A stretch of DNA of 64,000 nucleotides from Neotabrizicola shimadae (GTDB lineage Bacteria; Pseudomonadota; Alphaproteobacteria; Rhodobacterales; Rhodobacteraceae): the NCBI RefSeq assembly GCF_019623905.1, contig NZ_CP069370.1, forward strand, positions 372,001 to 436,000, read 5' to 3'. The notes beneath the pieces were generated by a model. It did not search any database, was not told where the DNA came from, and saw only the letters and a list, made by a program, of their open reading frames with translations. Shown here piece by piece: positions 2,780 through 24,179 of this stretch (positions within the stretch are counted from its first letter, which is position 1; every line of letters begins with the position of its first letter). The position numbers were made by a program, and so were the translations under genes.

Positions 2780-6025
<3,246 letters not shown>

Positions 6026-6045
6026 CGCCCCTGCTCCCCTTGATC

Positions 6046-7134: not shown

Positions 7135-7143
7135 GTCTCTCCC

Positions 7144-9089: not shown

Positions 9090-10582
9090 GACGGCACCGC
9101 GTCTTTCGCGGTCAGGCCATAGGCCGCGCGCATCAGCCGGGCCTCGTCGGCTTCGGCCGCATCGAAACTGTCCACCACGCGGCCGTTGAAGATCACCACC
9201 ACGCGGTCGCAGGCCAAGCGGATTTCGGCCAGTTCCGAGGTATAGAACAGGACCGCCGCGCCCTGATCGGCCAGTTCCCGGACAAGCGCATAGATCTGCC
9301 GCTTGGTGCGGATGTCGATGCCGCGCGTCGGGTCGAACAAGAGCAGCGTTTTCACGCCCTTGGCGATCCAGCGCGCGATTGTCACCTTCTGCTGGTTGCC
9401 GCCCGACAGCCGCCGCACCTCACCCTGCGCCCGCGTGTCGATCTGCAACCGCTCGATGGCCGCGCCCACCCGCGCCGCCTCGTCGCGCATCGCGATGGCG
9501 CCCCAATTCCGAACGCGGGCCAAGAGCGGCACGGCAATGTTCTCGCGCACCGACCGCGACATGAGCAGCGCATGGGCGCGGTCGCCCGGCACCAGCGTCA
9601 GCCCCTCGGCAATCGCATCCGCCGGATGGTGGAACGCGACCGCCTTGCCATCCACCTCCAGCCCGCCCGCGAGTGCAGGCCGGTTGCCGGCCAAGACGTC
9701 GAACAATTCGTCCTGACCCTGGCCTTCCAGAGCCACGACGCCCAGAACCTCGCCGCGGTACAGGTCGAACGACACGTCCGACAACCGCGTGCCCGCCCGC
9801 AGGCCGCGCACCTTCAGCCGCGCCTCGCCCGGCGCCCGCCGCGCCGCCGTGGCATGCCGTTCGGGCGCCGTCACCGCGCCGCCCAGCATCAGCTCCACGA
9901 TATGCTCCTCGATCCCCGGCTCGATCTTCAGGTCGCCGACCGTCAGCCCCTCGCGCAGCACCGTGGCGCGGTCACAGATCGCCGCGATCTCGCGGAACCG
10001 GTGCGAGACATAGATCACCGAACGCCCCGCATCCGCCTGCGCCCGCACCGTCCTCAGCACCCGCTCCACCAGGTCGGTCGGCAGCGCCGCCGTCATCTCG
10101 TCCAGCATCAGCACGTCCGGCTCCACCGCCAGCGCGCGCGCCAGGTCCAGGATGCGCAAGGTGGCCAGTGGCAGCGCGCGGATCGCATCGTCCATCCGCA
10201 GGTCGGCAATGCCCAGTTCCGCCACCCAGTGCTGGAACGGCTCCACCGGCGTCTCGCACAGCCGCAGGTTGTCGGCCACATCCAGATCGGGGATCAGCGA
10301 GGGCTCCTGATAGATCGGCACCAGCCCCGAAGCCCGCGCCGCCCCCGGCGAAGACAGCCGCACGTCGCGCCCGTGAATACGCACATGCCCGCTGTCGCGC
10401 TTCAGCGCACCGGTGAGGATCTTCACCAGCGTGGACTTGCCCGCCCCGTTCGCGCCCATCAGCGCGACAATTTCGCCCCGGCCCACCTGAAGCGAGGCAT
10501 CCTTCAGCGCGACCACCGCGCCAAATCTTTTCGACACGCCTTGCGCGTCCAGAACGGCACTCGTCGTTCCAGCTGGGGTCAT
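9086..10582 (-). CDS. RbsA/MglA-type sugar ABC ATPase
   Basis: This 498-residue protein has two nucleotide-binding halves and energises the importer. The N-terminal half has an intact Walker A (GANGAGKST, about 41-49) and LDEMTAALP in the Walker B position. The second half has the degenerate P-loop LEGQGQDELFDV typical of MglA/RbsA and an LSGGNQQKV signature followed by LLFDPTRGIDI. In the first half the signature region reads ALPLATLRILDLARAL rather than a canonical LSxGxxQ, which is a notable departure. It is separated from the binding-protein gene by a hairpin. Confidence 0.93.
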   Translation of the reverse strand: MTPAGTTSAVLDAQGVSKRFGAVVALKDASLQVGRGEIVALMGANGAGKSTLVKILTGALKRDSGHVRIHGRDVRLSSPGAARASGLVPIYQEPSLIPDLDVADNLRLCETPVEPFQHWVAELGIADLRMDDAIRALPLATLRILDLARALAVEPDVLMLDEMTAALPTDLVERVLRTVRAQADAGRSVIYVSHRFREIAAICDRATVLREGLTVGDLKIEPGIEEHIVELMLGGAVTAPERHATAARRAPGEARLKVRGLRAGTRLSDVSFDLYRGEVLGVVALEGQGQDELFDVLAGNRPALAGGLEVDGKAVAFHHPADAIAEGLTLVPGDRAHALLMSRSVRENIAVPLLARVRNWGAIAMRDEAARVGAAIERLQIDTRAQGEVRRLSGGNQQKVTIARWIAKGVKTLLLFDPTRGIDIRTKRQIYALVRELADQGAAVLFYTSELAEIRLACDRVVVIFNGRVVDSFDAAEADEARLMRAAYGLTAKDAVPS

Positions 10583-10606
10583 GCTTGCGCTTCCTGCGGT
10601 GGCAAA

Positions 10607-10630
10607 GGGCCCCCGGCGATGCGGGGGCCC
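10607..10630 (-). terminator. Hairpin between binding-protein and ATPase genes
   Basis: GGGCCCCCG and its perfect complement (9-bp stem, 6-nt loop) lie 22 bp after the binding-protein stop; on the minus strand the hairpin is followed by TTTGCC. It probably stabilises or partly terminates the transcript so that the binding protein is made in excess. Confidence 0.6.
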
Positions 10631-10651
10631 CTTCGTGTCATGCGGTCCGGC

Positions 10652-11668
10652 TTATTCGCCCGGGCCCTTGCAGGCGATGATCTGGTCCATCGTGTAGGTG
10701 GTCCAGCCGGGGATCGACACCGAAACCGGCCATTCCGGCGACAGGTTCGGGTTGGCCGCCGCGGCCAGCGTCGCCTTGCCCTCGTCCGTCACGTTTTCCC
10801 ACAGCACCGGGTCCACCAGAACGGTCTTCTCGGCCGGGGCCTGGCCGTCCAGGATCTTGATCGCCAGCGCCACGCCCGCGCCGCCGACCGAGCCGGGGTT
10901 CGTCACCGCCGCGCCCTTCAGCCCTTCGACCGAGGACAGCTGGCTCACGAAGCCCGCGTTGTCCGCGCCGACAATCGGCACCAGCGGCGCGCCGCTTTCC
11001 ACGAAGGCATCCACGATCACGTTGTCGATGCCGCTGGTCCAGACGCCCTGGAACGGCACGCCCGCCGCGATGATGTCGTTGATCTGCTGCTTGCCCTGGT
11101 CCTGCTGCCAGCCGGTGAAGACTTCCTGCGCCACGGTGATGTCGGGGAATTCCGCCATCGCCCGCTTGAAGCCCTTGTCGCGGTCATTGTCCGCCCCCGC
11201 GCCGGCCGCGCCGCGCATGTAGACCACGGCGCCCTTGCCGCCCATCTGCTCGAACAGCCACTTGGCGCCCAGGTAGGCATATTCTTCCTGGTTGTTCGAC
11301 AGGATATAGGCCGAAGGCTCGGTCACCGCCTGGTCCACCGCCACCACGACGATGCCCTTGTCGGTCGCTTCCTTGATCGCCGCGTTGATGCCGTCGGCAT
11401 TGGCCGGGTTCACCACGATGGCGTTCACGCCCGCCTGGATCAGGTTGCGGATGTCCTCCAGCTGGCCGGCCGCATCGGTGTTGCGGTGGGCGATGTTCAG
11501 GCTTTCCACCTTGCCCGAGGCCAGCGCCTCGGCCTTCATGGCGCAGACCATCTCTTCCCGCCAGCCGTTGCCCTGCACGGTGTTGGAAATGCCGATCTTG
11601 TAGCCTTCCGCCTGCGCCATGCCGGCAAGGCCCATGGCCATGGCGGTACCCAGCAGAAATTTCTTCAT
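10652..11668 (-). CDS. Periplasmic sugar-binding protein (Peripla_BP_4 type)
   Basis: This is a receptor of 338 residues with Sec signal peptide MKKFLLGTAMAMGLAGMAQA (cleavage after about residue 20). The mature N-terminus YKIGISNTVQGNGWREEM is typical of the ribose/xylose-binding class; AGVNAIVVNPANADGINAAIKEA and VVAVDQAV are conserved ligand-domain segments. Cysteines at the MVCAMKAE and IIACKGPGE positions could form a disulfide. It lies 43 bp after the isomerase gene and precedes the ATPase. The ligand is unknown; neighbouring dehydrogenases suggest a sugar or polyol. Confidence 0.92.
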   Translation of the reverse strand: MKKFLLGTAMAMGLAGMAQAEGYKIGISNTVQGNGWREEMVCAMKAEALASGKVESLNIAHRNTDAAGQLEDIRNLIQAGVNAIVVNPANADGINAAIKEATDKGIVVVAVDQAVTEPSAYILSNNQEEYAYLGAKWLFEQMGGKGAVVYMRGAAGAGADNDRDKGFKRAMAEFPDITVAQEVFTGWQQDQGKQQINDIIAAGVPFQGVWTSGIDNVIVDAFVESGAPLVPIVGADNAGFVSQLSSVEGLKGAAVTNPGSVGGAGVALAIKILDGQAPAEKTVLVDPVLWENVTDEGKATLAAAANPNLSPEWPVSVSIPGWTTYTMDQIIACKGPGE

Positions 11669-11711
11669 TCTCTTCCTCCCGTTGAAGTCCGTTCAGGTCG
11701 TCTTGCGCGTC

Positions 11712-12626
11712 CTATTTGACGTAGGGGCGAAGGACGTCTCTCGCCAGAAGGAACCCGCGTTCGACCTTTTCGCGCGTCCCCTCGAAATTGCGGTCCTCGT
11801 GCTCGATGATCACCGGCCCGTCGTATCCGGCGCGGTACAGCGCCGCGAACAGCGGGGGCCAGTCCACCTCTCCCAGCCCCGGTATCCGCGGCACCTGCCA
11901 GCCCATGCCAAGCGACATGATCCCGTTTTCGTACAGACCCTCCCTGTCGATCATCAGGTCCTTGGCGTGCACATGGACCATGCGGCCTCCGAACTCGCGG
12001 ATGAAGCGTAGCGGGTCGATCATCTGCCACACAAGATGGCTTGGATCGAAATTCATCCCCACGCCGTCGCCCCAGCTGTCGAAGATGCGCCGCCAGATCT
12101 TCGGCGAATAGGCGATGTTGTGCCCGCCCGGCCATTCGTCATGGGAAAAGATCATCGGGCAGTTCTCGAAGGCAAGGGCCACCCCGTGGTCGCGCGCAAA
12201 GGAGACGATGTCAGGGAAGATCTGCTCTGCCCGCGCCCAGTTCTGATCCAGCGTCAGGGTCCGGTCGCCGCCGACGAAGGTGTTGACGACGCCAACCTTC
12301 ATCATCGCCGCCGCGCGGATGACCTTCTTCAAATGCCCGATAACCATCTCGCGGTGCGCCGCATCGGCGTGCAGCGGATTGGGGTAATAGCCAAGGCCCG
12401 ATATCGCCAGCCCCTGCGCCGCGATGTCGTCGGCAATCTCGCTGGCCAGCCCCGGCGTCATGTCCTCGATCGGCAGATGCGCCGTACCGGCATAGCGCCG
12501 CGTCTCGCCGCCGGTCGAAGGCCAGCAGGCGATCTCCAGCGCCTCGAACCCCGCGCCTTTCGCCCATTGGGCCACCTCGCCCAGGCTCAACTCGGGGAAG
12601 GGGGCGGTCAGGATGCCCAGTTTCAT
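11712..12626 (-). CDS. Sugar phosphate isomerase/epimerase (AP-endonuclease-2 TIM barrel)
   Basis: This 304-residue TIM-barrel protein belongs to the xylose-isomerase-like family that epimerises, isomerises or dehydrates keto-sugars with a divalent metal. Likely metal ligands occur in order: E of LAFENCPM, D of NFDPSHL, H of VHVHAKD and E of VIIEHEDRN. The ATG at 12626 overlaps the stop of the upstream Gfo gene as ATGA. A dehydrogenase coupled directly to such a barrel is the pattern of keto-sugar pathways (inositol, anhydro-sugars, glycoside 3-oxidation), which is an inference for this operon. Confidence 0.88.
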   Translation of the reverse strand: MKLGILTAPFPELSLGEVAQWAKGAGFEALEIACWPSTGGETRRYAGTAHLPIEDMTPGLASEIADDIAAQGLAISGLGYYPNPLHADAAHREMVIGHLKKVIRAAAMMKVGVVNTFVGGDRTLTLDQNWARAEQIFPDIVSFARDHGVALAFENCPMIFSHDEWPGGHNIAYSPKIWRRIFDSWGDGVGMNFDPSHLVWQMIDPLRFIREFGGRMVHVHAKDLMIDREGLYENGIMSLGMGWQVPRIPGLGEVDWPPLFAALYRAGYDGPVIIEHEDRNFEGTREKVERGFLLARDVLRPYVK

Positions 12627-13780
12627 CTTGTCTCTCCCAGTTCGACCCAACGGCCTTCGCGCGCCGAGGCCAGCACGGCATCGCAGAACAGCATCTCGTG
12701 GTGCCCGTCCTCAAAGCTGGCCCAGGTGGACTCCGGCCCCCGCCCGCCGCGCGCCACGTCGCCATAGACCTGCGCGAAGAAGGCGCGGAAGCTGTCGGCG
12801 AAGCCCTCCACATGCCCGCCCGGCAGCGCCGCCGCCGCACGCCCGGTGGCGTTCATCAGCCCCGGATCGCGCTGCAACACCGCGTTCGGCCTGTCGCGGT
12901 GGCCCAGCCACAGATGGTCCGGCGTCTCGGAAAACCAGGCCGCTGCGCCGGCGGCGCCGGCAATCTCCCAATCCAGCGCGTTCTTCTTGCCAAAGCTCAC
13001 CTGGCTGGTGGTCAGCGCCCCCCGCGCACCATCCGCGAAGCGCAGAAGGATCATCGCAGCGTCATCGGTTTCGACCCGGCGCGTCTCGGTCGCGCCCTGC
13101 GCCGCCGAAAACGTCTCTACCGGCCCCACCGGCTTTTGCCGTTCGGGCAGGAAGGTCGCCAGTTCTGCCATCACCGCCGCCACCTTCTGCCCGGTGATGA
13201 AGCTCACAAGGTCAACCCAATGCGTGCCGATGTCGCCCACCGACCGCAGCGCGCCGCCCTCGTCGGCCTCCAGCCGCCAGTTCCAGTCGGTGGGCCTGGC
13301 CAGCCAGTCCTGGTGATACTGCCCGGTCACCAACCGGATATCCCCCAGCTCGCCCGCCGCCACCATGCCGCGCGCCTGCTGGTTCAGGGGATAGAAGCGG
13401 ATGTTGTAGCAGACCGCCGCCACCTTCCCGCTTGCCCTTGCCAGCGCCACCATCTCGGCCGACTGGGCCGAGGTCATGGCAAGGGGCTTCTCGCAGATCA
13501 CATGTTTTCCCGCAGCGAGGATCGCCTTCACCTGCGGATAATGCGCGACATTGGGCGACGTGACATGCACCACCTGCACCGCCGGATCCGCCAGCAATTC
13601 GTCAAGCGAGCCATAGGAATGGCTCACGCCAAGCGCCGCCGCCCGTTCCGCACCGCGCGCGGCCGATGACCCCAGCACCCCGCGCACCGGCACGCCAAGG
13701 CGCCGCAACGCCTCGACATGCACCGTGCCGATGAAGCCGGTGCCGATGACCGCCGCGCCGATTCCGCTGATCGTGCTCAC
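12623..13780 (-). CDS. Gfo/Idh/MocA-family sugar dehydrogenase
   Basis: This is a 385-residue oxidoreductase with Rossmann motif VIGTGFIGTVH (about 11-21), ICEKPLAM near residue 96, and YHQDWLARPTDWNWRLEADEGGALRSVGDIGTHWVDL; the G-D-I-G-T-H stretch holds the presumed catalytic His. The segment around QDW and DWNWR resembles levoglucosan-dehydrogenase-like members from memory, a weak but specific hint of a glycoside or anhydro-sugar substrate. The start is GTG at 13780 behind GGGGGG. It is coupled by ATGA to the TIM-barrel isomerase, so both probably act on the same intermediate. Confidence 0.88.
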   Translation of the reverse strand: MSTISGIGAAVIGTGFIGTVHVEALRRLGVPVRGVLGSSAARGAERAAALGVSHSYGSLDELLADPAVQVVHVTSPNVAHYPQVKAILAAGKHVICEKPLAMTSAQSAEMVALARASGKVAAVCYNIRFYPLNQQARGMVAAGELGDIRLVTGQYHQDWLARPTDWNWRLEADEGGALRSVGDIGTHWVDLVSFITGQKVAAVMAELATFLPERQKPVGPVETFSAAQGATETRRVETDDAAMILLRFADGARGALTTSQVSFGKKNALDWEIAGAAGAAAWFSETPDHLWLGHRDRPNAVLQRDPGLMNATGRAAAALPGGHVEGFADSFRAFFAQVYGDVARGGRGPESTWASFEDGHHEMLFCDAVLASAREGRWVELGETR

Positions 13781-13801
13781 GAAAGCCCCCCTGACCCAAG
13801 G

Positions 13802-14527
13802 TCACGCTACAGAATAGCCGCCGTCAATGGCCAGGCACGTCCCGGTCATGAAGGCAGCGCCGGGCGAGGCGAGGAACAGCACCGGCGCCGCGATATCCTC
13901 GGGCTGGCCCCATCGCCCCATCGGCGTCCGCAGGTTCACTGCCGCCACATGCGCCGGGTCGGTGCGGCTGCGCGCCGATTGCTGCGTCACGATGAACCCC
14001 GGCGCCACCGCATTCACCCGGATGCCGTCCGCCGCCCAGGCAATCGCCAGCGACCGCGTCAGCTGCGCCACTGCCGCCTTGCTGGCGCCATAGGCCGGAT
14101 TCTTCGGGCTGCCGAAGGTCGCATACATCGAGGCGATGTTGATCAGACTGCCCTTCGACGCCTTCAGTTGCGGATGGAAGGCCTCGGCACAGCGGAAGGT
14201 GCCGTGCAGGTTCACGTCCACCACCCGTTCAAAGAACTCTGGCGCCATCTCCTCCCCGCGCGAGGTGATGGCGGCCCCGTTCACCAGCACGTCCAGCCGC
14301 GGCATCGCCGCCGACAGCGCGCGAACCGCTGCCCCATCGGTCACGTCCAGCTGAGTATAGACAAAACGTCCGCGATCCTCTTCCGCCGGTTCCGGTTCTG
14401 CCCCGGTGATCGCCACCTCGGCCCCGGCGTCCTGAAAGGCCCGCGCGATGGCGGCTCCGATGCCGGCCCTGCTTGCGCCGACGACAAGCACGAAAGCCCC
14501 CGAAAAATCGAAGCTGATTCCCGCCAT
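13802..14527 (-). CDS. Short-chain dehydrogenase/reductase
   Basis: This is a classical SDR of 241 residues. The cofactor loop is VVGASRAGIGAAIARAF (a G-x-x-x-G-x-G variant), with LVNGAAIT (NxA motif), a catalytic Tyr-Lys pair in NPAYGASKAAVAQL, and a C-terminal MTGTCLAIDGGYS typical of the family. ATG at 14527 was chosen since it opens the Rossmann fold; the frame continues upstream without further homology. It lies 21 bp before the Gfo gene in the same operon. The substrate is probably a hydroxyl of the imported sugar; direction of reaction unknown. Confidence 0.88.
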   Translation of the reverse strand: MAGISFDFSGAFVLVVGASRAGIGAAIARAFQDAGAEVAITGAEPEPAEEDRGRFVYTQLDVTDGAAVRALSAAMPRLDVLVNGAAITSRGEEMAPEFFERVVDVNLHGTFRCAEAFHPQLKASKGSLINIASMYATFGSPKNPAYGASKAAVAQLTRSLAIAWAADGIRVNAVAPGFIVTQQSARSRTDPAHVAAVNLRTPMGRWGQPEDIAAPVLFLASPGAAFMTGTCLAIDGGYSVA

Positions 14528-14585
14528 GGCTGTCTCCCTCAAGGCCGGATCATCGGCCCGGTGCGAGGGCTTTGCAACGGAATTT

Positions 14586-15452
14586 TCAGGTATCGTCGGT
14601 TTGATTATTCTGTTCCACGTCGCCCTGTGCCGCACCCAGCAATCGGCCCAGGCTCAGGATCACGCTCTGGCAGACCACCATCGCCGGCACCTGCGACCGG
14701 AAGTGCCCAAGCCGGGCCTCGTTCACGAACAGCACCGGCGAGGCGAGGCCCGCCACCGGGCTCAGGTCATTGTCGGTGATCGCCACCACACGCCGCCCCG
14801 CCGCATGGGCCAGCCGCGCGACCTCCACGCTTTCGGGCGTATAATCGTCGAAGGTCATCACCCACAGCACGTCGCGCGGCCCGATGGCCGCCGCCTGCTC
14901 GCGCCGCATGGCGCCCAGATTGTCCACTAGATGCGCGCGCTTGCCCACGCTCGCCAGGCCGTACACGCTGTAGGCGCCAAGCCCGAAGGCCCCCCGCGCC
15001 GCCGCCACATGCACCGCCTCGGCCTCGGCCAGCGCCGCCACGAACCCGGCCAGTGCCGCCCGGTCCAGCGTATCCTCGATCCGCAGAAGCGATTGCACCC
15101 CGGCCCCCACCAGCCCCGCGAATACATCGCCAGGGCGGTCCAGGTCCGCCCCCGCCGCCCCCGCCACCCGTTCGGCAAAGGGCCGGTGCGGGCCCAGAAG
15201 CCGTTCGCGGAACACCGCCTGGAACTCGGCAAAGCCCGCGAAATCCAGATCCTTGGCGAACCGCGTGATGGTGGCCGGCGGCACCCCGGCCCGCTCGGCC
15301 AACTTGACCAGGGTATCCAGCGCCACCTCCTCGGGGTGGTTCAGCACATAGCGCGCGACCTGCGCCAGCCGCGGACTGAGCCCCTCGCCCCGCCGTGCCA
15401 GCCTCTGCCTCAGTTCCTCGAAATCGCGCGGCGCGCCGTCCTCATCCGCCAT
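14586..15452 (-). CDS. MurR/RpiR-family transcriptional regulator
   Basis: This is a cytoplasmic sugar-sensing regulator of 288 residues: an N-terminal helix-turn-helix domain of about 80 residues (SPRLAQVARYVLNHPEEVAL, AERAGVPPATITRFAKDLDF) and a C-terminal SIS domain (about 125-270) that normally binds a phosphosugar. It is embedded in the operon between two SDR genes, 9 bp after the upstream one, so it most likely controls this operon, responding to a pathway intermediate. Whether it represses or activates cannot be told. Confidence 0.9.
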   Translation of the reverse strand: MADEDGAPRDFEELRQRLARRGEGLSPRLAQVARYVLNHPEEVALDTLVKLAERAGVPPATITRFAKDLDFAGFAEFQAVFRERLLGPHRPFAERVAGAAGADLDRPGDVFAGLVGAGVQSLLRIEDTLDRAALAGFVAALAEAEAVHVAAARGAFGLGAYSVYGLASVGKRAHLVDNLGAMRREQAAAIGPRDVLWVMTFDDYTPESVEVARLAHAAGRRVVAITDNDLSPVAGLASPVLFVNEARLGHFRSQVPAMVVCQSVILSLGRLLGAAQGDVEQNNQTDDT

Positions 15453-15461
15453 GCCGCCCCC

Positions 15462-16226
15462 TCAGATGGCCCCTGCCACCTTCTGCTCGAAATCCACCAG
15501 CGCCCCGCTCATCGGCACCGAAGCCTCGCCCAGAAGAAACACCGCCAGCCGCGCCGCCTCCTCCGCCGTCACCAGCCGCTTCAGCGGCAGCCCCGCCGCC
15601 GCCTCGGCCTCCCAGCCCGGACCCTTGCCCAGAACCTCGGCCTGCATGTGCCGCTCGCTCTCCGTCGCCACCCAGCCCAGGTTGATGCCGTTCACCCGGA
15701 TCCGGTCCGCCATATGCGCATGGGCTGCGTTCTTCGTCAGTGTGGCCAGCGCGCCCTTGGTCGCCGCATAGATCGCCAGTTCCGGTATGCCGCAATGCGC
15801 GTTCATCGACAGGATGTTGACGATCGCGCCCGCCGCACCCCGCGCCTGCATGTCCAGGATCGCCGCCTGCATCATCAGGAAGGCGCCCCGCGCATTCACG
15901 TCGAACAGCCGGTCCCAGACATCCGCCGTCCCCGTCACGAACGACCCCCGCGTGGTCAGCCCCGCCGCATTCACCAGCCCGTCGATCCGCCCGAACCGCG
16001 CCCGCACCGCCGCCGCCACCCGGGCCGGAGCTTCGGGGTCCGCCATATCCTCGCACAGCGCCAGCCCTCCCACCGCCTCGGCCGCGAGCGCGCAACCTGC
16101 TGCGTCGCGGTCCACCAGCACCAGCGCGCCCACGCCCTCGGCAGCGGCCAGCCCCGCGATGGCCCGGCCGATCCCCGCCGCCCCGCCGGTGACGACGATC
16201 ACCCGGTCACCAAGCCCCATGTCCAT
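15462..16226 (-). CDS. Short-chain dehydrogenase/reductase, first gene of the sugar operon
   Basis: This SDR of 254 residues has TGGAAGIGRAI (cofactor loop), LVNAAGLT, the catalytic Ser region NILSMNAHCG and Y-x-x-x-K in IYAATKGALATL. Two in-frame ATGs occur; 16226 was preferred because GGGAGG lies 6 nt upstream. It is the promoter-proximal gene of the eleven-gene minus-strand operon. The 172 bp upstream separate it divergently from the nicX-like gene, so this interval must carry promoters for both directions. Confidence 0.88.
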   Translation of the reverse strand: MDMGLGDRVIVVTGGAAGIGRAIAGLAAAEGVGALVLVDRDAAGCALAAEAVGGLALCEDMADPEAPARVAAAVRARFGRIDGLVNAAGLTTRGSFVTGTADVWDRLFDVNARGAFLMMQAAILDMQARGAAGAIVNILSMNAHCGIPELAIYAATKGALATLTKNAAHAHMADRIRVNGINLGWVATESERHMQAEVLGKGPGWEAEAAAGLPLKRLVTAEEAARLAVFLLGEASVPMSGALVDFEQKVAGAI

Positions 16227-16313: not shown

Positions 16314-16378
16314 TTGACAGATTGCCGCAGTCTCGAAAACCTTAACTCCACAGTTAAGAAATTCGCGCGAACGCGAAT
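16314..16378. promoter_or_regulatory. Divergent promoter region with two tandem palindromes
   Basis: A TTGACA hexamer (16314-16319, plus strand) is followed by two perfect inverted repeats: CTTAACT-N4-AGTTAAG at 16341-16358 and ATTCGCG-N4-CGCGAAT at 16361-16378. They have the same geometry (7-bp arms, 4-bp spacer), are 2 bp apart and end 20 bp before the nicX-like start. No good -10 is seen at 17 bp. They are candidate operators for the TetR protein of the cluster and/or the RpiR protein of the opposite operon. Confidence 0.5.
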
Positions 16379-16398: not shown

Positions 16399-17448
16399 AT
16401 GCTGCAAGAGCGCATCGAAGGGAAGTGGCTTGCCGCTTTCCGCAGGGTTCTCGCATTGAACGGCATCGGGAAGGGCACGCCGATTGCCATCCTGTCCGAA
16501 ACGCAATCGCGCCCGGTGCTGGTGCAACTCTGCGAACTGGCGGCCTATGACCTGGGCGCCGAATTCTGCATGATCCAGATGCCCACGCCGCCGCAATCCG
16601 CGCCGGTCCCGGTGAAATCCACCGGCACAAGTTGGGCGCTTCAAGGCAACCGCGCGGTGGTCGAGGCGCTGAAACGTGTCGAGGTCATCGTGGATTGCAC
16701 CGTGGAAGGGCTGATCCACGCCCCCGAATGGCCCGAAATCGAAGAGGCCGGCAACACCCGCCTTCTGGTCATCACCAACGAACACCCGGAAATCCTCGAA
16801 CGCACCGAACCGAAGGCCGAAGACGGCATCAAGCTTCAGATCGGCATCCAGATGCTGCGCGAAGCCTCGGAAATGCGCGTGACCTCGCCCGCCGGCACCG
16901 ACCTGACGGTTGACCTGCGCGGCGCGCCCTGCGGTGGCACCGCGGGTTTCGGCACCACGCCCGGCGCCGTGGCGCACTGGCCGGGCGGGCTCTGCCTCGC
17001 CTTCCCCGGAAAGGATGCGGTCAACGGTCGCATCGTGATGGACGTCGGCGACATGAACCTGACGTTCAAGACCTTCCTGACCAGCCGCATCGACTTCACG
17101 GTCGAGAACGACTTCGTCACCGCCATCAAGGGCGACGGCATAGATGCGCTTCATCTGCGCGAGTACATGGAGGCCTGGGGCGACCGCAACGCCTATGGCC
17201 TGTCCCATGTCGGCTGGGGCATGAACCACGGCGCGAAATGGGTCTCGGCCGCGATGTACGACAAGCGCGACATGCAGGCCGTGGAGTTCCGTGCCATCGC
17301 CGGATCGTTCCTCTGGTCCACCGGCGCCAACCAGTATGCCGGGCGCTACACGCTCGGCCATTTCGACCTTCCGATGAGAAATTGCACCATCGCCCTCGAC
17401 GGGCGCGTCGTCGTCAAGGACGGCGTTTTGCAGGGAGAACTTGCCTGA
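16399..17448 (+). CDS. NicX-like 2,5-dihydroxypyridine 5,6-dioxygenase family protein
   Basis: This 349-residue protein belongs to the M29-peptidase-like fold family that includes NicX, the non-heme Fe(II) enzyme opening the ring of 2,5-dihydroxypyridine to N-formylmaleamate. Segments GLSHVGWGMN, FLWSTGANQYAG and GHFDLPMRNC closely parallel NicX from memory. H270 (of SHVGWG), H321 and D323 (of GHFD) occupy the positions of its reported iron ligands H265, H318, D320. ATG at 16399 was chosen; two in-frame GTGs lie just upstream at 16390 and 16393. Its stop overlaps the next start as TGATG. The protein could act on another hydroxylated ring; general annotations call relatives leucyl aminopeptidase. 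Confidence 0.82.
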   Translation: MLQERIEGKWLAAFRRVLALNGIGKGTPIAILSETQSRPVLVQLCELAAYDLGAEFCMIQMPTPPQSAPVPVKSTGTSWALQGNRAVVEALKRVEVIVDCTVEGLIHAPEWPEIEEAGNTRLLVITNEHPEILERTEPKAEDGIKLQIGIQMLREASEMRVTSPAGTDLTVDLRGAPCGGTAGFGTTPGAVAHWPGGLCLAFPGKDAVNGRIVMDVGDMNLTFKTFLTSRIDFTVENDFVTAIKGDGIDALHLREYMEAWGDRNAYGLSHVGWGMNHGAKWVSAAMYDKRDMQAVEFRAIAGSFLWSTGANQYAGRYTLGHFDLPMRNCTIALDGRVVVKDGVLQGELA

Positions 17449-18791
17449 TGACCGACCAGAGCCCGATCGCCGCCGCCATGCCGATGAGCGCCCCTGGCGA
17501 CTATTACGACCTGACCCGCATCCGCCCCGAAGTTCTGGCCGCGCTGGAAAAGATCAACACGATGGGCCCGGCCTTTGCCGCCCGCGCGAAATCGGTGGAT
17601 GACGAGGCCTCCTTCCCGACCGAAAACTACCGCGACCTCGCCGATGCCGGCTTCCTCGGCCTCTCGATCCCGCAGGAATTCGGCGGCTGGGGCTTCTCCA
17701 TGGGTGAATACGCCATGGTGGGCGCCGAAATCGCCAAGTACTGCGGCGCCACCGCGCTGACCTTCAACATGCACAATTCCTCGATGGCCTGGTCGCGCTT
17801 CATGTACGACATGCCGAACCTGACGCCCGAGGAAAGGGCCGAATTCGCGCCGCTGCGCGAACGCCAGTTCCTGCGCGCCATGAAGGAACGCGCGATCTAT
17901 TCGCAGCCGATCTCCGAAGGCGGCCAGAACTGGACCTCCAAGCCCAACCAGACGCAGGCCCGTGCGGTGGAAGGCGGCTGGAAGATCAACGGTTTCAAGA
18001 AGTTCGCTTCGCTGGCCGGCTATTGCGACTACTACACCATCGTCTGCACCGAGGTCTTTGAAGGCATCGAACCGCGTCACGAAGACACGATGCTGTTCGT
18101 CGTCCACAAGGATACGCCCGGCCTTCTGGTGAAAGGCGAGTGGGATCCTCTGGGGATGCGCGGCACCAATTCCCGCGACCTGATCCTGAAGGATGTCTTC
18201 GTCACCAAGGACGACCTGCTCATGCCGCGCGGCATCTTCGGCAAGACGCTGCCGAACTGGCCGCACATGATGGCCACCCTCTCGCCCACCTACATGGGCG
18301 TGGCCCAGGGCGCGTTCGATTTCACCGTGGCCTATCTCCAGGGCCGTGTGCCGGGCCAGCCGCCCATCGACCGCCGCATGTATGCGACCAAGCGCATCGC
18401 CGTGGGCAAGATGTATGCCCGGCTCGCCGCCATGCGCGCGCTCTGGTGGCAGGCCTTCGGCGAGGCCAAGGGCTTCCCCTCCAAGGGCGAGGTCATGCGC
18501 ATGTATGCTGCGCAGTATAATGTGATGGAGGGCGTGCAGGAAATCGCCGCCATGGCGATCCGCACCTGCGGCGGCCAGTCCATGCTGCGCTCGCTGCCCC
18601 TGGAACGCATGTACCGCGACAGCCGCTGCGGCGCGCTGATGCTGCCCTATACCTCGGAAATCATGGAAGATTACCTCTCGGTCCTCTCGCTCTACGACAT
18701 GGACGAGCTGGATACCGCACCGGGGGACGAGGGTGGCGCGCGCAACTCGCTGTGGCGTGGCGACAGCGGCACCCTCCGGATGCTGCGCTGA
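17448..18791 (+). CDS. Acyl-CoA-dehydrogenase-fold flavoprotein, probable FMNH2/FADH2-dependent monooxygenase
   Basis: This 447-residue protein has the full acyl-CoA dehydrogenase fold: N-terminal helical domain (FPTENYRDLADAGFLGLSIPQEFGG), middle beta domain (YSQPISEGGQNW, FKKFASLAGYCDYY, WDPLGMRGTNSRDLIL) and C-terminal helices. In the C-terminal segment that usually reads YEGTSxIQ, it reads LPYTSEI, so the catalytic Glu of medium-chain dehydrogenases appears replaced by Pro. With a flavin reductase encoded in the same cluster (22110-22628), a two-component monooxygenase of the DszC type is more likely than a dehydrogenase. It is coupled (TGATG) to the NicX-like gene, suggesting it hydroxylates the ring before cleavage. 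Substrate unproven. Confidence 0.8.
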   Translation: MTDQSPIAAAMPMSAPGDYYDLTRIRPEVLAALEKINTMGPAFAARAKSVDDEASFPTENYRDLADAGFLGLSIPQEFGGWGFSMGEYAMVGAEIAKYCGATALTFNMHNSSMAWSRFMYDMPNLTPEERAEFAPLRERQFLRAMKERAIYSQPISEGGQNWTSKPNQTQARAVEGGWKINGFKKFASLAGYCDYYTIVCTEVFEGIEPRHEDTMLFVVHKDTPGLLVKGEWDPLGMRGTNSRDLILKDVFVTKDDLLMPRGIFGKTLPNWPHMMATLSPTYMGVAQGAFDFTVAYLQGRVPGQPPIDRRMYATKRIAVGKMYARLAAMRALWWQAFGEAKGFPSKGEVMRMYAAQYNVMEGVQEIAAMAIRTCGGQSMLRSLPLERMYRDSRCGALMLPYTSEIMEDYLSVLSLYDMDELDTAPGDEGGARNSLWRGDSGTLRMLR

Positions 18792-18795
18792 TCCG

Positions 18796-20085
18796 ATGCC
18801 GCGCGATACCGTTCATGTCCATGCCCGCATCGCCGCCGATCCGGCGGCGGTCTGGGCCGTGGCGCGCGATTTCGGTGGGGCCTGGCACCCCTGGATCGAC
18901 AGGGTCCGCACCGAACGCGACGCGAAGGGCCACCTGATCCGTGCCTTCACCGTGAAGGGCGAGGACACGCTCTACCGCGAACAACGGACCTACCTGTCCG
19001 ACAGCGACCGGGTGCTGGCCTATACCCACCTGGAAGGCATCTCCGGCGCCGACAGCTACGATGCGCGCCTGACGGTGACCCCGGCCGACGAGGGCGGTTC
19101 CGTCGTCACCTGGATCGCCCAGGTCAGCGCCCCAGCCACCCGGCTCGGGTCCATCTGCGAGGGCACCCGCGCGGTGTTTCAGGCGGGGATTCAGGCGCTC
19201 GGCACAGCCGCCGCGCCGCCCGACCCGGCCCCCGAACCCAGGCTTCCGGACCCGGAGATCCAGGAGATCACCCTCGACGGTCTCCCCCGCCTTGGCCTCT
19301 CGGTCACGCCCGACCTTGGCGACGGGCGGCTCTGCCTCTTCCTGCATGGCATCGGCGGCAACCGCCGCAACTGGCACAGGCAACTCTCCGCCGTCGCGCC
19401 CCACATGCGCGCCGCCGCTCTCGACCTGCGCGGCTATGGCACCAGCACGCTCGGCCCCCGCCAGACCGGCGTTGACGACTACATCGCCGACATCCTTCGC
19501 GTGGCCGAAGCGCTCGGCGCGCGGCGGCTGGTTCTGGTGGGCCTGTCCTACGGCTCCTGGATCGCCACCTCCTTCGCCACCTGGCACCCCGACCGGCTGG
19601 ACGGCCTCGTGCTCTCGGGCGGCTGCACCGGCATGTCAGAGGCCGGGCCCGAGGAACGCGAAGCCTTCCGCCTCAGCCGCGAGGTGCCGCTGAACGCGGG
19701 CCAGGTCCCCGCCGACTTCGCCCCCGCCGTGGTCAAGGTGCTGGCCGGCCCCCACGCCACGGAAGACATCCGCGCCGAGCTTCTGGCCTCCATGGCCGAA
19801 ATCCCCGCCTCCACCTACCGCGACGCGCTCACCTGTTTCACCAATCCCCTGGAACGCTTCGACTTCGCGCGCCTCACCATGCCCGTCCTGATGATGACGG
19901 GCGAGCACGACCGCCTCGCCCCCCCCGCCGAAATCCGCGGCGTCGCCGGGCGCATCTGGGACAGCGCCCCGCACCCCGACGTCCGGTTCGAGGTCATCCC
20001 CGGCGCGGGCCACCTGTGCAACATCGAGCAACCCGCGCCCTACAACCGTCACCTCACCGAATTCCTCTCCGGCCTGCCCGCATGA
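18796..20085 (+). CDS. SRPBCC domain fused to alpha/beta hydrolase (possible deformylase/amide hydrolase)
   Basis: The 429 residues show two domains. Residues 1-135 resemble the SRPBCC/START-like polyketide-cyclase fold (TVHVHARIAADPAAVWAVARDF, SYDARLTVTPADEGGSVVTW). After a Pro-rich linker (about 138-152), an alpha/beta hydrolase follows with oxyanion motif LFLHGIGGN, nucleophile S251 in GLSYGS, D372 in GEHDRLAPP and H406 in GAGHLCNIEQP. In the nicotinate pathway NicX is followed by the alpha/beta hydrolase NicD, an N-formylmaleamate deformylase, so an analogous step is plausible. The SRPBCC domain may bind the hydrophobic substrate. The start at 18796 lies 4 bp after the previous stop. Confidence 0.82.
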   Translation: MPRDTVHVHARIAADPAAVWAVARDFGGAWHPWIDRVRTERDAKGHLIRAFTVKGEDTLYREQRTYLSDSDRVLAYTHLEGISGADSYDARLTVTPADEGGSVVTWIAQVSAPATRLGSICEGTRAVFQAGIQALGTAAAPPDPAPEPRLPDPEIQEITLDGLPRLGLSVTPDLGDGRLCLFLHGIGGNRRNWHRQLSAVAPHMRAAALDLRGYGTSTLGPRQTGVDDYIADILRVAEALGARRLVLVGLSYGSWIATSFATWHPDRLDGLVLSGGCTGMSEAGPEEREAFRLSREVPLNAGQVPADFAPAVVKVLAGPHATEDIRAELLASMAEIPASTYRDALTCFTNPLERFDFARLTMPVLMMTGEHDRLAPPAEIRGVAGRIWDSAPHPDVRFEVIPGAGHLCNIEQPAPYNRHLTEFLSGLPA

Positions 20086-20768
20086 CCGCGCCGCTCTCCC
20101 GCCGCGAACAGAACCGCCAGTCGCGCGAACGCCGCATCCTCGACGCCGCGCTCCGCGTCTTCTCCTCGATGGGCTACAGCGGCACCACGATGGATGCCGT
20201 CGCCGCCGAAGCCGGCCTGTCCAAGCCCACGCTCTACCAGTACTTCCCCAGCAAGGAGCAGCTCTTCCAGGAGATGATGCTCGCGCAGCGCGACCAGATG
20301 CTCGACATGTTCCAGCATCCCTCGCCTGACGGCATGGTGCACGAGCTGCTCGCCTTCGCCTGGGCCTATGCCGGCGTGGTGATGCGCCCCGACATGCTCT
20401 CGCTCGCCCGGCTCATCATCGGCGAAGTCAGCCGCTTCCCCGAAATCGGCCGCGCCTACCAGGCTTCCGGCCCCGACAAGCTTCTGCGCGGCATCATCGA
20501 CTACCTCGTCGCGCAGCGCGCCGCCGGCCGGCTCACCTTCGACGACGGCGAACTGGCCGCGCAGGATCTCTGGGGCCTCATCCTTTCGGCCCCCCGCACC
20601 CAGGCGCTCTACCTGCCCGACGACCAGCCGACGCAGGCCCAGCTTGGCCGCTACATCTCGAACGGGCTCAGCGTCTTCCTGCGCGCCTATTCCACCGATC
20701 CGGCCACCGATCTCAACCGCCTGAAGGCGCTGGAACGCGCCAGGGCCACGACAGGGAACAGGGAATGA
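20082..20768 (+). CDS. TetR/AcrR-family transcriptional regulator
   Basis: This is a 228-residue repressor-type regulator. The N-terminal HTH is clear (RERRILDAALRVFSSMGYSG, TTMDAVAAEAGLSKPTLYQYFPSKEQLF, about 15-62); the C-terminal ligand domain looks like the AefR-type (LSLARLIIGEVSRFPEIG). ATG at 20082 overlaps the hydrolase stop (ATGA), and its own stop overlaps the next start (ATGA), so it is made with the pathway enzymes. Likely operators are the palindromes at 16341-16378 or 22646-22663. Confidence 0.9.
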   Translation: MTAPLSRREQNRQSRERRILDAALRVFSSMGYSGTTMDAVAAEAGLSKPTLYQYFPSKEQLFQEMMLAQRDQMLDMFQHPSPDGMVHELLAFAWAYAGVVMRPDMLSLARLIIGEVSRFPEIGRAYQASGPDKLLRGIIDYLVAQRAAGRLTFDDGELAAQDLWGLILSAPRTQALYLPDDQPTQAQLGRYISNGLSVFLRAYSTDPATDLNRLKALERARATTGNRE

Positions 20769-22105
20769 CCTTCGACGACTACCTCGCCGATCCCGCAAGC
20801 CGTTTTGCCACGGTGGCGATGGCCGATACCAACGGGCTCCTGCGCGGGCAGATGGTATCGCTCTCCAGCCTCAAGGGCATCGCCAGGGCCGGCATGGGCA
20901 TGGCCCCGGCGCAGCTTGCGCTGGACCCGACCGACGTGCATCTCAACCTGCCCGGCGTGAACGACGACAGCGGAGACTTCCACGACGACCCGCTGAAGGT
21001 CGACCCCGCCACCGCCCGCCGCCTGCCCTGGTCCAAACCCGGCCACGACCTGCTGGTCCTGTCCAACTTCACCGGCGCCTCCGCCGAGCTCTGCCCCCGC
21101 TCGATCCTCACCCGCGTCCTCGCCCGCGCCGCCGAAGCCGGGTTCTTCCCGAAATACGGGATGGAACTGGAATACACACTCTTCGACGAAACCCCTGAAA
21201 GCGCCCGCGCCAAGGGCTACCGCAACCTCAAGCCCGCCACGCTGCACGCCAGCCACGACCTGATCCTCTACCAGGCCGTCCAGACCGAATGGTACGAAGC
21301 GCTGGCCGCCATCTGCGAGCCGCTGAAGATCAACCTCGCCAAGATGCACGAGGAAATCGGCGCCGGCTTCATGGAATGCTGCATCGGCGCGGGCGAGGGG
21401 CTTGAACCGGCCGACCAGCTCGTGCTGCTCAAGAACTTCCTGCGCGCCCTGGCGCTGCGGCAGGGCAAGTCCGTCACCTTCATGCCGCGCTGGAACGAAC
21501 AGGCCGACAGCCAGTCGATCCACCTGCACATCAGCCTGAAGGACAAGTCGGGCACCCCGGTCTTCTGGGATGCGGCCGGCAAGAACGGCGTTAGCCAGAC
21601 CTTCCGCCACTTCCTCGGCGGCCTGCAGAAATACATCGGCGACATGACGCTGGTGTTCCAGCCCACGGTGAACAGCTACCGCCGCTTCGCCCCCGGCACC
21701 TTCGCGCCGCCCGGCCTGACCTGGGGCTATGAAAATCGCACCACCTGCTTCCGCCTCGTCGGCCACGATCCGGGCTCGCTGCGCGTGGAAAACCGCCTGC
21801 CGGGCGCCGATTCCAATCCCTACCTCACCGCCGCCGCCACCATCGCGGCCGGTGTCGCAGGCATCCTGGAAAAGGCCGAACCCGAGGCAGAGGTCATCGG
21901 CTCCGGCTATGCCCAGGAACCTGCGCGCGACTTCGCCCGCTCCATGCCCGAGGCGATCGACCGCCTGAAAGCCTCGGATTTCGCGCGCGACTGGCTCGGT
22001 CCCCGCTTTGTCGAGGGCTTCACCGCCACGCGCCAAAGCCAGTACGACGAATTCCGCCGCAAGGTGCCGGATGTCGAACTGGAACGCTTCTTCGACCTGG
22101 GGTGA
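20765..22105 (+). CDS. Glutamine-synthetase-family ligase (probable gamma-glutamyl-amine synthetase)
   Basis: This 446-residue protein has the GS fold: N-terminal beta-grasp (about 1-110) and catalytic domain with metal-ligand motif YGMELEYTLFDE, ENRTTCFRLVG and the RLPGADSNPYL motif (from about residue 341). The adenylylation Tyr region of GlnA is not evident and the protein lies in a catabolic cluster with an amine/amino-acid permease, so it resembles PuuA/IpuC-type enzymes that attach glutamate to an amine, rather than housekeeping GlnA. It overlaps tetR by ATGA. The acceptor amine is unknown. Confidence 0.85.
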   Translation: MTFDDYLADPASRFATVAMADTNGLLRGQMVSLSSLKGIARAGMGMAPAQLALDPTDVHLNLPGVNDDSGDFHDDPLKVDPATARRLPWSKPGHDLLVLSNFTGASAELCPRSILTRVLARAAEAGFFPKYGMELEYTLFDETPESARAKGYRNLKPATLHASHDLILYQAVQTEWYEALAAICEPLKINLAKMHEEIGAGFMECCIGAGEGLEPADQLVLLKNFLRALALRQGKSVTFMPRWNEQADSQSIHLHISLKDKSGTPVFWDAAGKNGVSQTFRHFLGGLQKYIGDMTLVFQPTVNSYRRFAPGTFAPPGLTWGYENRTTCFRLVGHDPGSLRVENRLPGADSNPYLTAAATIAAGVAGILEKAEPEAEVIGSGYAQEPARDFARSMPEAIDRLKASDFARDWLGPRFVEGFTATRQSQYDEFRRKVPDVELERFFDLG

Positions 22106-22109
22106 TCCG

Positions 22110-22628
22110 ATGACATCCGCACTGCGCGCAGACTTCCTCGAAGGCATGAGCCGGGCGGCGACCTTCGTGGCCGTGGCCACCACCGATGGCGAGGCCGGGC
22201 GCTATGGCGTCACCATCTCCTCGCTCACCTCGGTTTCGGCCGACGGCGACCACCCCTCGCTGCTCGCCTGCATCCACCATCTCTCCCCGGCGGCGGCGGC
22301 GATCCTGAAGAACCGCGCCTTCTGCGCCAACCTCCTGCACGAAGACCAGAAAGCCGTCTCCGACCTCTTCGCCGGGCGCGGCCAGCCCGGCGACCATGCC
22401 GCCCGCTTCGACCGCGCTGCCTGGACGCCCGGCCCGCACCGCCAGCCCATGATCGACGGCGCCACCGCCGCCTTCGAATGTCGCCTGGCCACCGCGCTCC
22501 TGTGGGAGACGCATTACATCATCGTCGGCCGCGTCACCCATGTTGCGCTGTCCGACAGCCCCGCCGCGCTCCTCTACGGCCAGCGCGCCTATCGCCGGGC
22601 GGTTCACCTGCCGCCCGCGGACCCCTGA
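22110..22628 (+). CDS. Flavin reductase (HpaC-like)
   Basis: This 172-residue protein belongs to the split-barrel flavin reductase family that supplies reduced FMN/FAD to partner monooxygenases. Typical features are VTISSLTSVSADGDHPSLLACI (flavin-phosphate and isoalloxazine loop), FCANLLHEDQ and the C-terminal HYIIVGRVTHV. The start at 22110 lies 4 bp after the GS-like stop, and the usual reductase length is about 160-180. Its presence is the main argument that the 17448-18791 flavoprotein is a two-component oxygenase. Confidence 0.88.
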   Translation: MTSALRADFLEGMSRAATFVAVATTDGEAGRYGVTISSLTSVSADGDHPSLLACIHHLSPAAAAILKNRAFCANLLHEDQKAVSDLFAGRGQPGDHAARFDRAAWTPGPHRQPMIDGATAAFECRLATALLWETHYIIVGRVTHVALSDSPAALLYGQRAYRRAVHLPPADP

Positions 22629-22645
22629 AAAAGGTCTCAAGAGAA

Positions 22646-22663
22646 TAGTTGATAAAGCAACTA
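22646..22663. promoter_or_regulatory. Candidate operator upstream of the permease gene
   Basis: A perfect inverted repeat TAGTTG-N6-CAACTA lies in the only AT-rich patch of the cluster (22630-22680), 74 bp before the permease start and 18 bp after the flavin-reductase stop. It suggests the permease has its own regulated promoter. A GTATCCACG near 22675 resembles a DnaA box by chance only. Confidence 0.4.
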
Positions 22664-22736
22664 ATTGGTGAATAGTGTATCCACGAATGAAGAAAGAGGC
22701 GGGCAACACACCCGCCCATCCAACCAGGAGAGGGAA

Positions 22737-24179
22737 ATGACAGATACATCCGGGCTGGGCGCGAACCAGCTCAAGAAGAACTCGCTCGGCCTTCTGGCCG
22801 TGACCTTCATGGTCGTCTCGGCCGCTTCGCCGCTGACGGGGGTGGCGGGCGCCATGCCGCTCGCCTTCCTCTTGGGCAACGGCACCGGGGTTCCGGCCAT
22901 GTTCATCGTCATCACCGCGCTGATGCTGGCCTTCGCGGTCGGCTACGTGGCGATGGCCAGACATGTGAAGAACGCCGGCGCCTTCTATGCCTATGCCGCG
23001 CGCGGGCTCGGTGGCCATGTCGGCGGCGCCGTGGCGATCCTCGCGCTCTTGTCCTACAACTGCATGCAGTTCGGCCTGATCGGCCTGTTCGGCGGCGTGG
23101 CCTCGGGCGTGTTCGGCGGCTTCGGCATCGTTCTGCCCTGGTGGGGCTGGAGCCTGATCGCCCTCATCCTCGTCGGCTTCCTCGGCTATCGCCAGGTCGA
23201 TCTTTCGGCCAAGGTGATGATCGTTCTGGTGGCGCTGGAATATCTCATCGTGCTCGTGGTCGATTTCGCGATCCTCGGCCAGGGCGGCGCCAACGGGCTT
23301 GCCTTCCCGATGTTCGACTCCTCGGCCTTCTTCTCGGGCTCGCTGACCGCCGCCGTGCTGTTCTGCCTCGGCTGCTTCATCGGCTTCGAGGCGACGACGA
23401 TCTATGCCGAAGAAGCCCGCGATCCCGACCGCACCATCCCGCGCGCGACCTATCTCTCCGTGCTGGCGATCGGCATCTTCTTCATCTTCACCACCTGGCT
23501 GATGATCGTCGGCGTCGGCGCCGAAAACCTCCTGCCCACGCTGGGTGGCATGGCCGATCCGACCGTGTTCTTCTTCGATCTCGCCGGCCAGTATGCCGGC
23601 GGAACCGTGGCGAACATCACCGGCATCCTCTTCGTGACCGGCCTCTTTGCCGCGCTCTCGGCCTTCCACAACTACATCGCCCGCTATTCCTATGTTGCCG
23701 GGCGCGACGGTCTTCTGCCTGCCGCCTTCGGCCGCACCCATGACCAGCACCTCAGCCCGCATATCGGCTCGGTGGTGCAAAGCATCGGCGCGCTCATCAT
23801 CCTGGCGGTGTTTGCGGGCCTCGGCCTCGACCCGGTGCTGAACATGTTCACCTGGATCAGCCAGATCGGCACGCTTGGCGTTCTCGCCATGATGACGATC
23901 ACCTCGCTCTCGGTCATGGCCTTCTTCCGCCAGCCCGGCCAGCAAGAGGGCGCGATGGCCGCGGTGATCCTGCCGCTCGTGACCGGCGTGGTGATGGCCT
24001 CGCTCTATGTCTACATCTTCGTCAACTTCGGCGATCTGACCGGCACCACCGGCGGTGCGCTCAGCTGGATCCTGCCGCTCCTGACGGTGATCGCCGCCGT
24101 GCTGGGCCATTTCATCGCAGCGGGCCTCAAGGCCCGCTCCCCCGCCCGGTTCGAGGCCATGGGCCAGAACCAGTTCTGA
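22737..24179 (+). CDS. APC-family amino acid/amine permease
   Basis: This 480-residue inner-membrane transporter has about 12 hydrophobic segments. The N-terminus LKKNSLGLLAVTFMVVSAASPLTGVAGAMPLAF and FIGFEATTIYAEEARDPDRTIPRATYLS are the APC signatures (helix-1 loop and the E-E-A-R-x-P motif). The family imports amino acids, polyamines and related amines by cation symport. ATG at 22737 follows GGAGAGGG. With a GS-like ligase in the same cluster, the pair recalls the PuuP-PuuA arrangement for putrescine, implying that the cluster's growth substrate is an amine or amino acid. Confidence 0.9.
   Translation: MTDTSGLGANQLKKNSLGLLAVTFMVVSAASPLTGVAGAMPLAFLLGNGTGVPAMFIVITALMLAFAVGYVAMARHVKNAGAFYAYAARGLGGHVGGAVAILALLSYNCMQFGLIGLFGGVASGVFGGFGIVLPWWGWSLIALILVGFLGYRQVDLSAKVMIVLVALEYLIVLVVDFAILGQGGANGLAFPMFDSSAFFSGSLTAAVLFCLGCFIGFEATTIYAEEARDPDRTIPRATYLSVLAIGIFFIFTTWLMIVGVGAENLLPTLGGMADPTVFFFDLAGQYAGGTVANITGILFVTGLFAALSAFHNYIARYSYVAGRDGLLPAAFGRTHDQHLSPHIGSVVQSIGALIILAVFAGLGLDPVLNMFTWISQIGTLGVLAMMTITSLSVMAFFRQPGQQEGAMAAVILPLVTGVVMASLYVYIFVNFGDLTGTTGGALSWILPLLTVIAAVLGHFIAAGLKARSPARFEAMGQNQF

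Follow-up and report, generated by a model that had tools for sequence, protein, structure and literature searches.

The alphaproteobacterium Neotabrizicola shimadae carries an operon of seven genes headed by a relative of NicX, the Fe(II) dioxygenase of nicotinate breakdown, within a 64,000-nt stretch of its genome (the window; NZ_CP069370.1, positions 372,001-436,000, forward strand). We put at about one in two the probability that this operon serves to open the ring of an indole-type N-heterocycle, leading to (hydroxy)anthranilate via 3-hydroxylation, C2-C3 cleavage and deformylation; we infer each reaction of this route, as well as its substrate. Coordinates below are window positions, whereas those prefixed C1 are genome positions (genome size 4.39 Mb), and L-numbers denote the related loci or genome stretches compared. 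Genes were assigned to families with Pfam and NCBIfam models and by PDB sequence search, and a genome scan for close NicX relatives yielded 80 contigs, which are the loci of the window clade behind all counts out of 80.

The gene order, namely, NicX, acyl-CoA-dehydrogenase (ACDH)-fold flavoprotein, SRPBCC-hydrolase, TetR, glutamine-synthetase (GS)-family ligase, flavin reductase and APC permease, is repeated in dozens of contigs from Rhodobacterales and Rhizobiales. Since it is common to these two groups, it is beyond chance, and the idea of a conserved catabolic operon gains support. The operon occurs in many soil and water bacteria. The GS-family gene is found in 71 of the 80 loci and the permease gene in 54, some contigs ending early. 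In some relatives (e.g., L100, L106, L109 and L110), the first four genes are retained but GS and permease genes do not adjoin them, which designates NicX, flavoprotein and hydrolase as the core and makes GS and permease look like an add-on module.

Fold and pocket of the NicX-like dioxygenase

In the PDB sequence search, the first protein of the operon matched Pseudomonas putida NicX (7cn3) with 199 bits (E 1e-57). Its AlphaFold model (pLDDT 87) aligns to the NicX structure over 341 residues, that is, its whole length, with a Z of 44.3 and an rmsd of 2.0, compared with a Z of 22.4 to the M29 peptidase AmpT (about 22 for M29 peptidases). No Pfam or NCBIfam model matches the protein, including PF02073 (peptidase family M29), and the only M29 protein of the genome is encoded at C1:891 kb. 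The earlier note had raised the doubt that this protein might be a plain metallopeptidase; the fold scores and the missing Pfam hit rule this out, and the protein is a real NicX homologue.

The iron of the NicX structure is coordinated by H265, S302, H318 and D320, and contacts with the substrate are made by E177, which recognises the dihydroxypyridine (DHP) ring, and H189; H105 and E308 also affect activity (PMC7910607). The three ligand positions described as intact in the earlier note (H265, H318 and D320) are indeed conserved, as is the fourth ligand S302, and the Fe ligands and R293 hardly vary across 162 distinct homologues. The pocket is different. E177 occurs in 20 sequences, all of which fall within a single clade (support 1.0) with P. 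putida NicX, whereas all 95 sequences of the window clade (support 0.925) have T177, Y308 and V187 in place of E177, E308 and W187; position 177 is V, I, G, N, S or A in the remaining relatives. True NicX thus forms a separate clade within the same bacterial family as the window clade, and its two members annotated in their wider context (L128 and L129) have nicD/E/F-like neighbours.

Because the three residues are replaced clade-wide and all Glu177 sequences belong to the true-NicX clade, 2,5-dihydroxypyridine is probably not the substrate of the enzyme, judging from the alignment and tree. The DHP- or aminopyridine-type substrates considered in the earlier note are therefore not supported, all the more so as the neighbours of the module are of anthranilate, kynurenine and gentisate type (see below), while NicX-type opening of an N-heterocycle as such is supported. 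In its full form, the pyridine route would start with import and glutamylation of an amine-bearing hydroxypyridine; hydroxylation, ring opening by a DHP-type NicX and deformylation would then lead to maleamate. We regard this as quite unlikely: it would account for the NicX homology and Fe ligands, for an alpha/beta hydrolase acting after ring opening as NicD does, and for the maleate-isomerase-like gene adjoining two related clusters, but it conflicts with the replaced pocket residues and with the separate true-NicX clade and its nicD/E/F-like neighbours where examined, and it leaves the gentisate-type carbocycle block without a role.

With regard to the nicotinate pathway of P. putida KT2440 (NicX/NicD), the operon thus shares the Fe(II) dioxygenase family and fold, the four Fe ligands, R293, H189 and H105, and a hydrolase following ring opening. 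It differs by the pocket substitutions, by an ACDH-fold oxygenase with a reductase instead of NicC, and by the SRPBCC fusion of its hydrolase. No nicD-, nicE- or nicF-like gene was matched in the whole window, in line with the absence of nicE and nicF from the neighbourhood noted before; nicAB and nicC were not searched by sequence.

Partner enzymes and a proposed route to anthranilate

The YEGT motif bearing the catalytic Glu of short-chain acyl-CoA dehydrogenases is missing at the aligned place in the flavoprotein, which fits a predicted oxygenase role; its best solved relatives are 5gj7 and 5z8t. Acyl-CoA-dehydrogenase-like proteins are found among the published two-component indole oxygenases (PMC6221969), and the pairing of flavoprotein and reductase in the operon is supported. 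In the hydrolase, the triad S251/D372/H406 is invariant in 13 sequences, and its action after ring opening is likewise supported. In the proposed route, the flavoprotein and the flavin reductase would hydroxylate an indole at C3, and the NicX-family enzyme would split the C2-C3 bond of the resulting 3-hydroxyindole, which contains the same N-CH=C-OH unit as NicX cleaves in DHP, to give an N-formylanthranilate. The SRPBCC-alpha/beta-hydrolase would then strip the formyl group, releasing an anthranilate. The GS-like ligase and permease would import and glutamylate an amine precursor, e.g., an aromatic monoamine.

Genes for CoA ligases, the kynurenine pathway and tryptophan dioxygenase beside related modules point to an anthranilate-type product. 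In a second group of relatives (NicX about 42-58% identical), the module comprises NicX, a hydrolase without SRPBCC and the flavoprotein, usually followed by a CoA ligase. Within this group, arylformamidase, kynureninase and tryptophan 2,3-dioxygenase, all over their cut-offs, are encoded nearby in L204, and tryptophan dioxygenase in L199. 2-Aminobenzoyl-CoA monooxygenases are related to the bifunctional salicylyl-CoA 5-hydroxylase/oxidoreductase family, for which a protein of L194 is over the cut-off and one of L200 gives a partial match. In the window clade, a benzoate-CoA-ligase-family gene lies near the permease in 9 of the 80 loci, accompanied by RidA and cupin genes in L054 and L078, and tryptophan dioxygenase is found in L104. 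The genome of N. shimadae itself harbours the same ligase (86%), RidA, cupin and an aminobenzoyl/salicylyl-CoA monooxygenase homologue in one cluster (C1:2.69-2.70 Mb), and kynU with tryptophan dioxygenase at C1:0.92 Mb.

The kynurenine-pathway links of L104, L199 and L204 would also agree with a 4-quinolone or kynurenate-type substrate, for which the flavoprotein would make a 3-hydroxy-4-quinolone, again with the N-CH=C-OH unit of DHP, and the NicX-like enzyme would cleave C2-C3, anthranilate-type products arising after more hydrolysis. Such a cleavage would yield an isatinate-type product requiring an extra C-C cleavage that is not encoded here, and no quinolone-specific gene was seen nearby, so that we consider this substrate improbable.

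The proposed indole route can be likened to the iif/ind pathway of Acinetobacter and Cupriavidus (PMC6221969), with which it would share a putative two-component oxygenase plus flavin reductase (of the same families as IifC/IndA would require), an anthranilate product and, in some relatives, a 2-aminobenzoyl-CoA-type route downstream. Where iif/ind has the SDR IifB and the cofactor-independent oxygenase IifA, the present route would rely on a NicX-family dioxygenase plus a hydrolase; Pfam and NCBIfam revealed no SDR among the seven genes of the operon.

The gentisate-type block and a possible amine link

A gentisate-dioxygenase-like gene is present upstream of NicX, as a rule directly, in 37 of the 80 loci, together with an FAA hydrolase in 36 of these 37, a second flavin reductase in 32 and a nitrilase-family protein in 22. 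In N. shimadae, this block resides at a second locus (C1:3,432-3,436 kb) and is 78-88% identical to the L032 copy; a tyrosine-recombinase-like open reading frame (L115:6834-7877, C1:3.43 Mb) adjoins it there. The block was found in 8 of 12 genomes with close NicX relatives versus 1 of 40 others (p 5e-6, a value weakened by the relatedness of the genomes). The L032 dioxygenase, to which the copy here is 88% identical, stays below the NCBIfam TIGR02272 cut-off (307 versus 442 bits), and its nearest solved relative is 3bu7 (561 bits), deposited as gentisate 1,2-dioxygenase.

In this branch, the product of the module would probably be 5-hydroxyanthranilate, passed on to the gentisate-dioxygenase-like enzyme, the FAA hydrolase and the nitrilase-family amidase. 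By analogy with gentisate chemistry, an amide would remain after C1-C2 cleavage of 5-hydroxyanthranilate, which would account for the amidase. The expected course runs from maleamoylpyruvate to pyruvate and maleamate, and from the latter to maleate and ammonia; maleamate as an intermediate would explain the maleate-isomerase-like gene adjoining the cluster in L070 and L072. Breakdown of anthranilate and indole via a gentisate branch has long been described (Cain 1968; Claus and Kutzner 1983; cited in PMC6221969 and PMC4539516), similarly with an anthranilate-type intermediate followed by gentisate-type ring cleavage, and a 2018 review assigns no genes to it (PMC6221969). The present cluster is a candidate for these genes. 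We tentatively propose, as a possible but rather doubtful extension, a (5-hydroxy)indole route, possibly starting from serotonin-like amines, with flavin-dependent 3-hydroxylation, NicX-type cleavage of the indoxyl at C2-C3 to N-formyl-(5-hydroxy)anthranilate, deformylation, gentisate-type opening of 5-hydroxyanthranilate and amide hydrolysis, in which the cluster would supply the gentisate branch.

The flavoprotein might instead be an anthranilate-type 5-hydroxylase, with the NicX-like enzyme acting on another heterocycle and the operon and gentisate block forming one route only in part. 5-Hydroxyanthranilate has been reported in the gentisate branch of anthranilate breakdown in Nocardia opaca (PMC4539516), and two flavin reductases often co-occur; the flavoprotein accompanies NicX and the hydrolase even in loci with a CoA ligase instead of the gentisate block, which makes this assignment decidedly improbable.

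As to the nature of a possible amine, the GS-like ligase is below the NCBIfam curated cut-offs of PuuA, type III GS and GlnA (169, 175 and 178 bits against 650, 469.6 and 429, respectively). Aniline provides an established case of an aromatic amine glutamylated by a GS-like enzyme (PMC4539516), and the roles of the ligase and permease, putative like the operon substrate, could be to serve such an amine. The operon resembles the gamma-glutamylation systems of AtdA1 (aniline), IpuC (isopropylamine) and PuuA (putrescine) in encoding a GS-family ligase with an oxygenase and a permease, but differs by a ligase score far below the PuuA model and by the lack of a gamma-glutamyl hydrolase. Homoprotocatechuate-type genes adjoin the cluster in 6 of the 80 loci (L033, L066, L069, L088, L094 and L105); three of these loci, L069, L094 (394 bits to DOPA decarboxylase) and L105, also have a DOPA-decarboxylase-like gene. 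N. shimadae possesses a homoprotocatechuate operon with an internal aromatic-L-amino-acid-decarboxylase-like gene at C1:3.166-3.185 Mb (L210). These links and the aniline precedent would suit a more specific form of the indole route, in which serotonin- or tryptamine-type amines are imported and glutamylated, 5-hydroxyindole is opened after side-chain loss, and catecholamines are degraded via the homoprotocatechuate genes. This version seems unlikely, as the operon encodes no amine oxidase or side-chain-removing enzyme, the homoprotocatechuate genes are far from the window in this genome, and the link is confined to those six loci.

A further locus, L218 (C1:3,885-3,904 kb), encodes a second GS-like ligase, a P450, a small ferredoxin-like protein, a gamma-glutamyl-hydrolase-like GATase, and aminotransferase- and aldehyde-dehydrogenase-like proteins. 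It resembles the aniline trio, with the P450 replacing the Rieske oxygenase. This GATase module was rejected as part of the present operon, its tie being limited to neighbourhood in five of the 80 loci (L044, L048, L066, L101 and L105) and in L125.

Several points weigh against the proposed indole route. No enzyme of the operon is an obvious candidate for removing a side chain at C3, such as that of serotonin or indoleacetate, and the GS-like ligase and APC permease are left without an assigned step. Most relatives have no tryptophan or anthranilate genes within 10 kb. The 5-hydroxy assignment is made because of the gentisate-type block, and gentisate itself is a possible substrate of a dioxygenase that is below the gentisate cut-off and has a gentisate enzyme as its nearest solved relative. 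Furthermore, neighbours of the benzoate-CoA-ligase kind, suggesting plain anthranilate, and of the gentisate kind, suggesting hydroxyanthranilate, do not have to reflect one and the same substrate.

Operon layout, putative regulation and significance

All seven genes described in the earlier note are at their place and on the plus strand (Table 1), and their family assignments were borne out by the present searches. The successive junctions are a 1-bp overlap, a 4-bp gap, two 4-bp overlaps, a 4-bp gap and, before the permease gene, a 108-bp gap.

Table 1. Genes and upstream elements of the operon, in window coordinates.
Feature	Position	Strand	Basis
TTGACA, possible -35 element, inside GTTGACAG	16314..16319	+	sequence match only
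Inverted repeat CTTAACT-N4-AGTTAAG, 18 bp, candidate operator of the TetR of the operon	16341..16358		uniqueness and conservation
NicX-family non-haem Fe(II) ring-cleavage dioxygenase, 349 aa, T177/Y308/V187 clade	16399..17448	+	PDB sequence match, alignment, tree, structure model
ACDH-fold flavoprotein, putative oxygenase component of a two-component monooxygenase	17448..18791	+	Pfam/NCBIfam, PDB sequence match
SRPBCC-alpha/beta-hydrolase fusion, conserved Ser251/Asp372/His406, putative N-formyl amide hydrolase (deformylase)	18796..20085	+	Pfam, alignment
TetR/AefR-type regulator, putative operon repressor	20082..20768	+	Pfam, operator conservation
GS-family ligase, putative gamma-glutamylation of an amine	20765..22105	+	Pfam/NCBIfam, PDB match
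Flavin reductase, RutF/HpaC-like but below cut-offs, putative reduced-flavin supplier for the monooxygenase	22110..22628	+	Pfam/NCBIfam
APC-superfamily amino acid/amine permease, putative substrate importer	22737..24179	+	Pfam/NCBIfam

The inverted repeat, 58 bp ahead of the NicX-like start, is a single site in the genome at one mismatch or fewer, and variants of it precede NicX in 68 of the 80 related loci. Among loci with enough sequence, it is present in 65 of 72 with TetR versus none of three without (Fisher p 0.002, indicative only since the loci are related by descent). By binding it, the TetR protein would repress the operon, a regulator-operator pairing that we infer from sequence conservation. 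As the repeat occurs once in the genome, no operator common to the operon and the gentisate block was found. Of 81 sequences examined, 27 contain the 9-mer GTTGACAGA ahead of the NicX gene. A further palindrome around TTTCGAAA, some 42 bp ahead of the inverted repeat, is conserved in about 30 related loci (e.g., L074 and L085 at -99) and not present in the window.

Variations in architecture were observed among relatives. In L125 (5538-7538, minus) and L127 (5757-7757, minus), SRPBCC, alpha/beta hydrolase and TetR form one fused 666-aa protein, placing enzyme and regulator in a single chain. In the Mesorhizobium-type loci L088 (15711-16877) and L072 (15713-16888), the flavin reductase has a C-terminal extension resembling, by eye only, a LysR substrate-binding domain. 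Upstream in the window, a minus-strand sugar-type catabolic cluster (5006-16226) encodes an ABC transporter, a periplasmic binding protein, Gfo/Idh/MocA proteins, a xylose-isomerase-like TIM barrel, SDRs and an RpiR-like regulator; these genes are outside the operon unit.

No published pathway or operon with a matching gene set was found in open-access papers (preprints not included), consistent with the earlier statement that no characterised pathway is known to have this combination. The operon assembles known enzyme families in an undescribed combination, around a NicX relative with a changed substrate pocket. If the proposed route is true, the NicX family would reach beyond dihydroxypyridine to a large branch that opens indole rings, and candidate genes for the gentisate branch of indole/anthranilate breakdown would come from an operon widespread in alphaproteobacteria. 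It would also call for caution in transferring the name '2,5-dihydroxypyridine dioxygenase' to the window clade.

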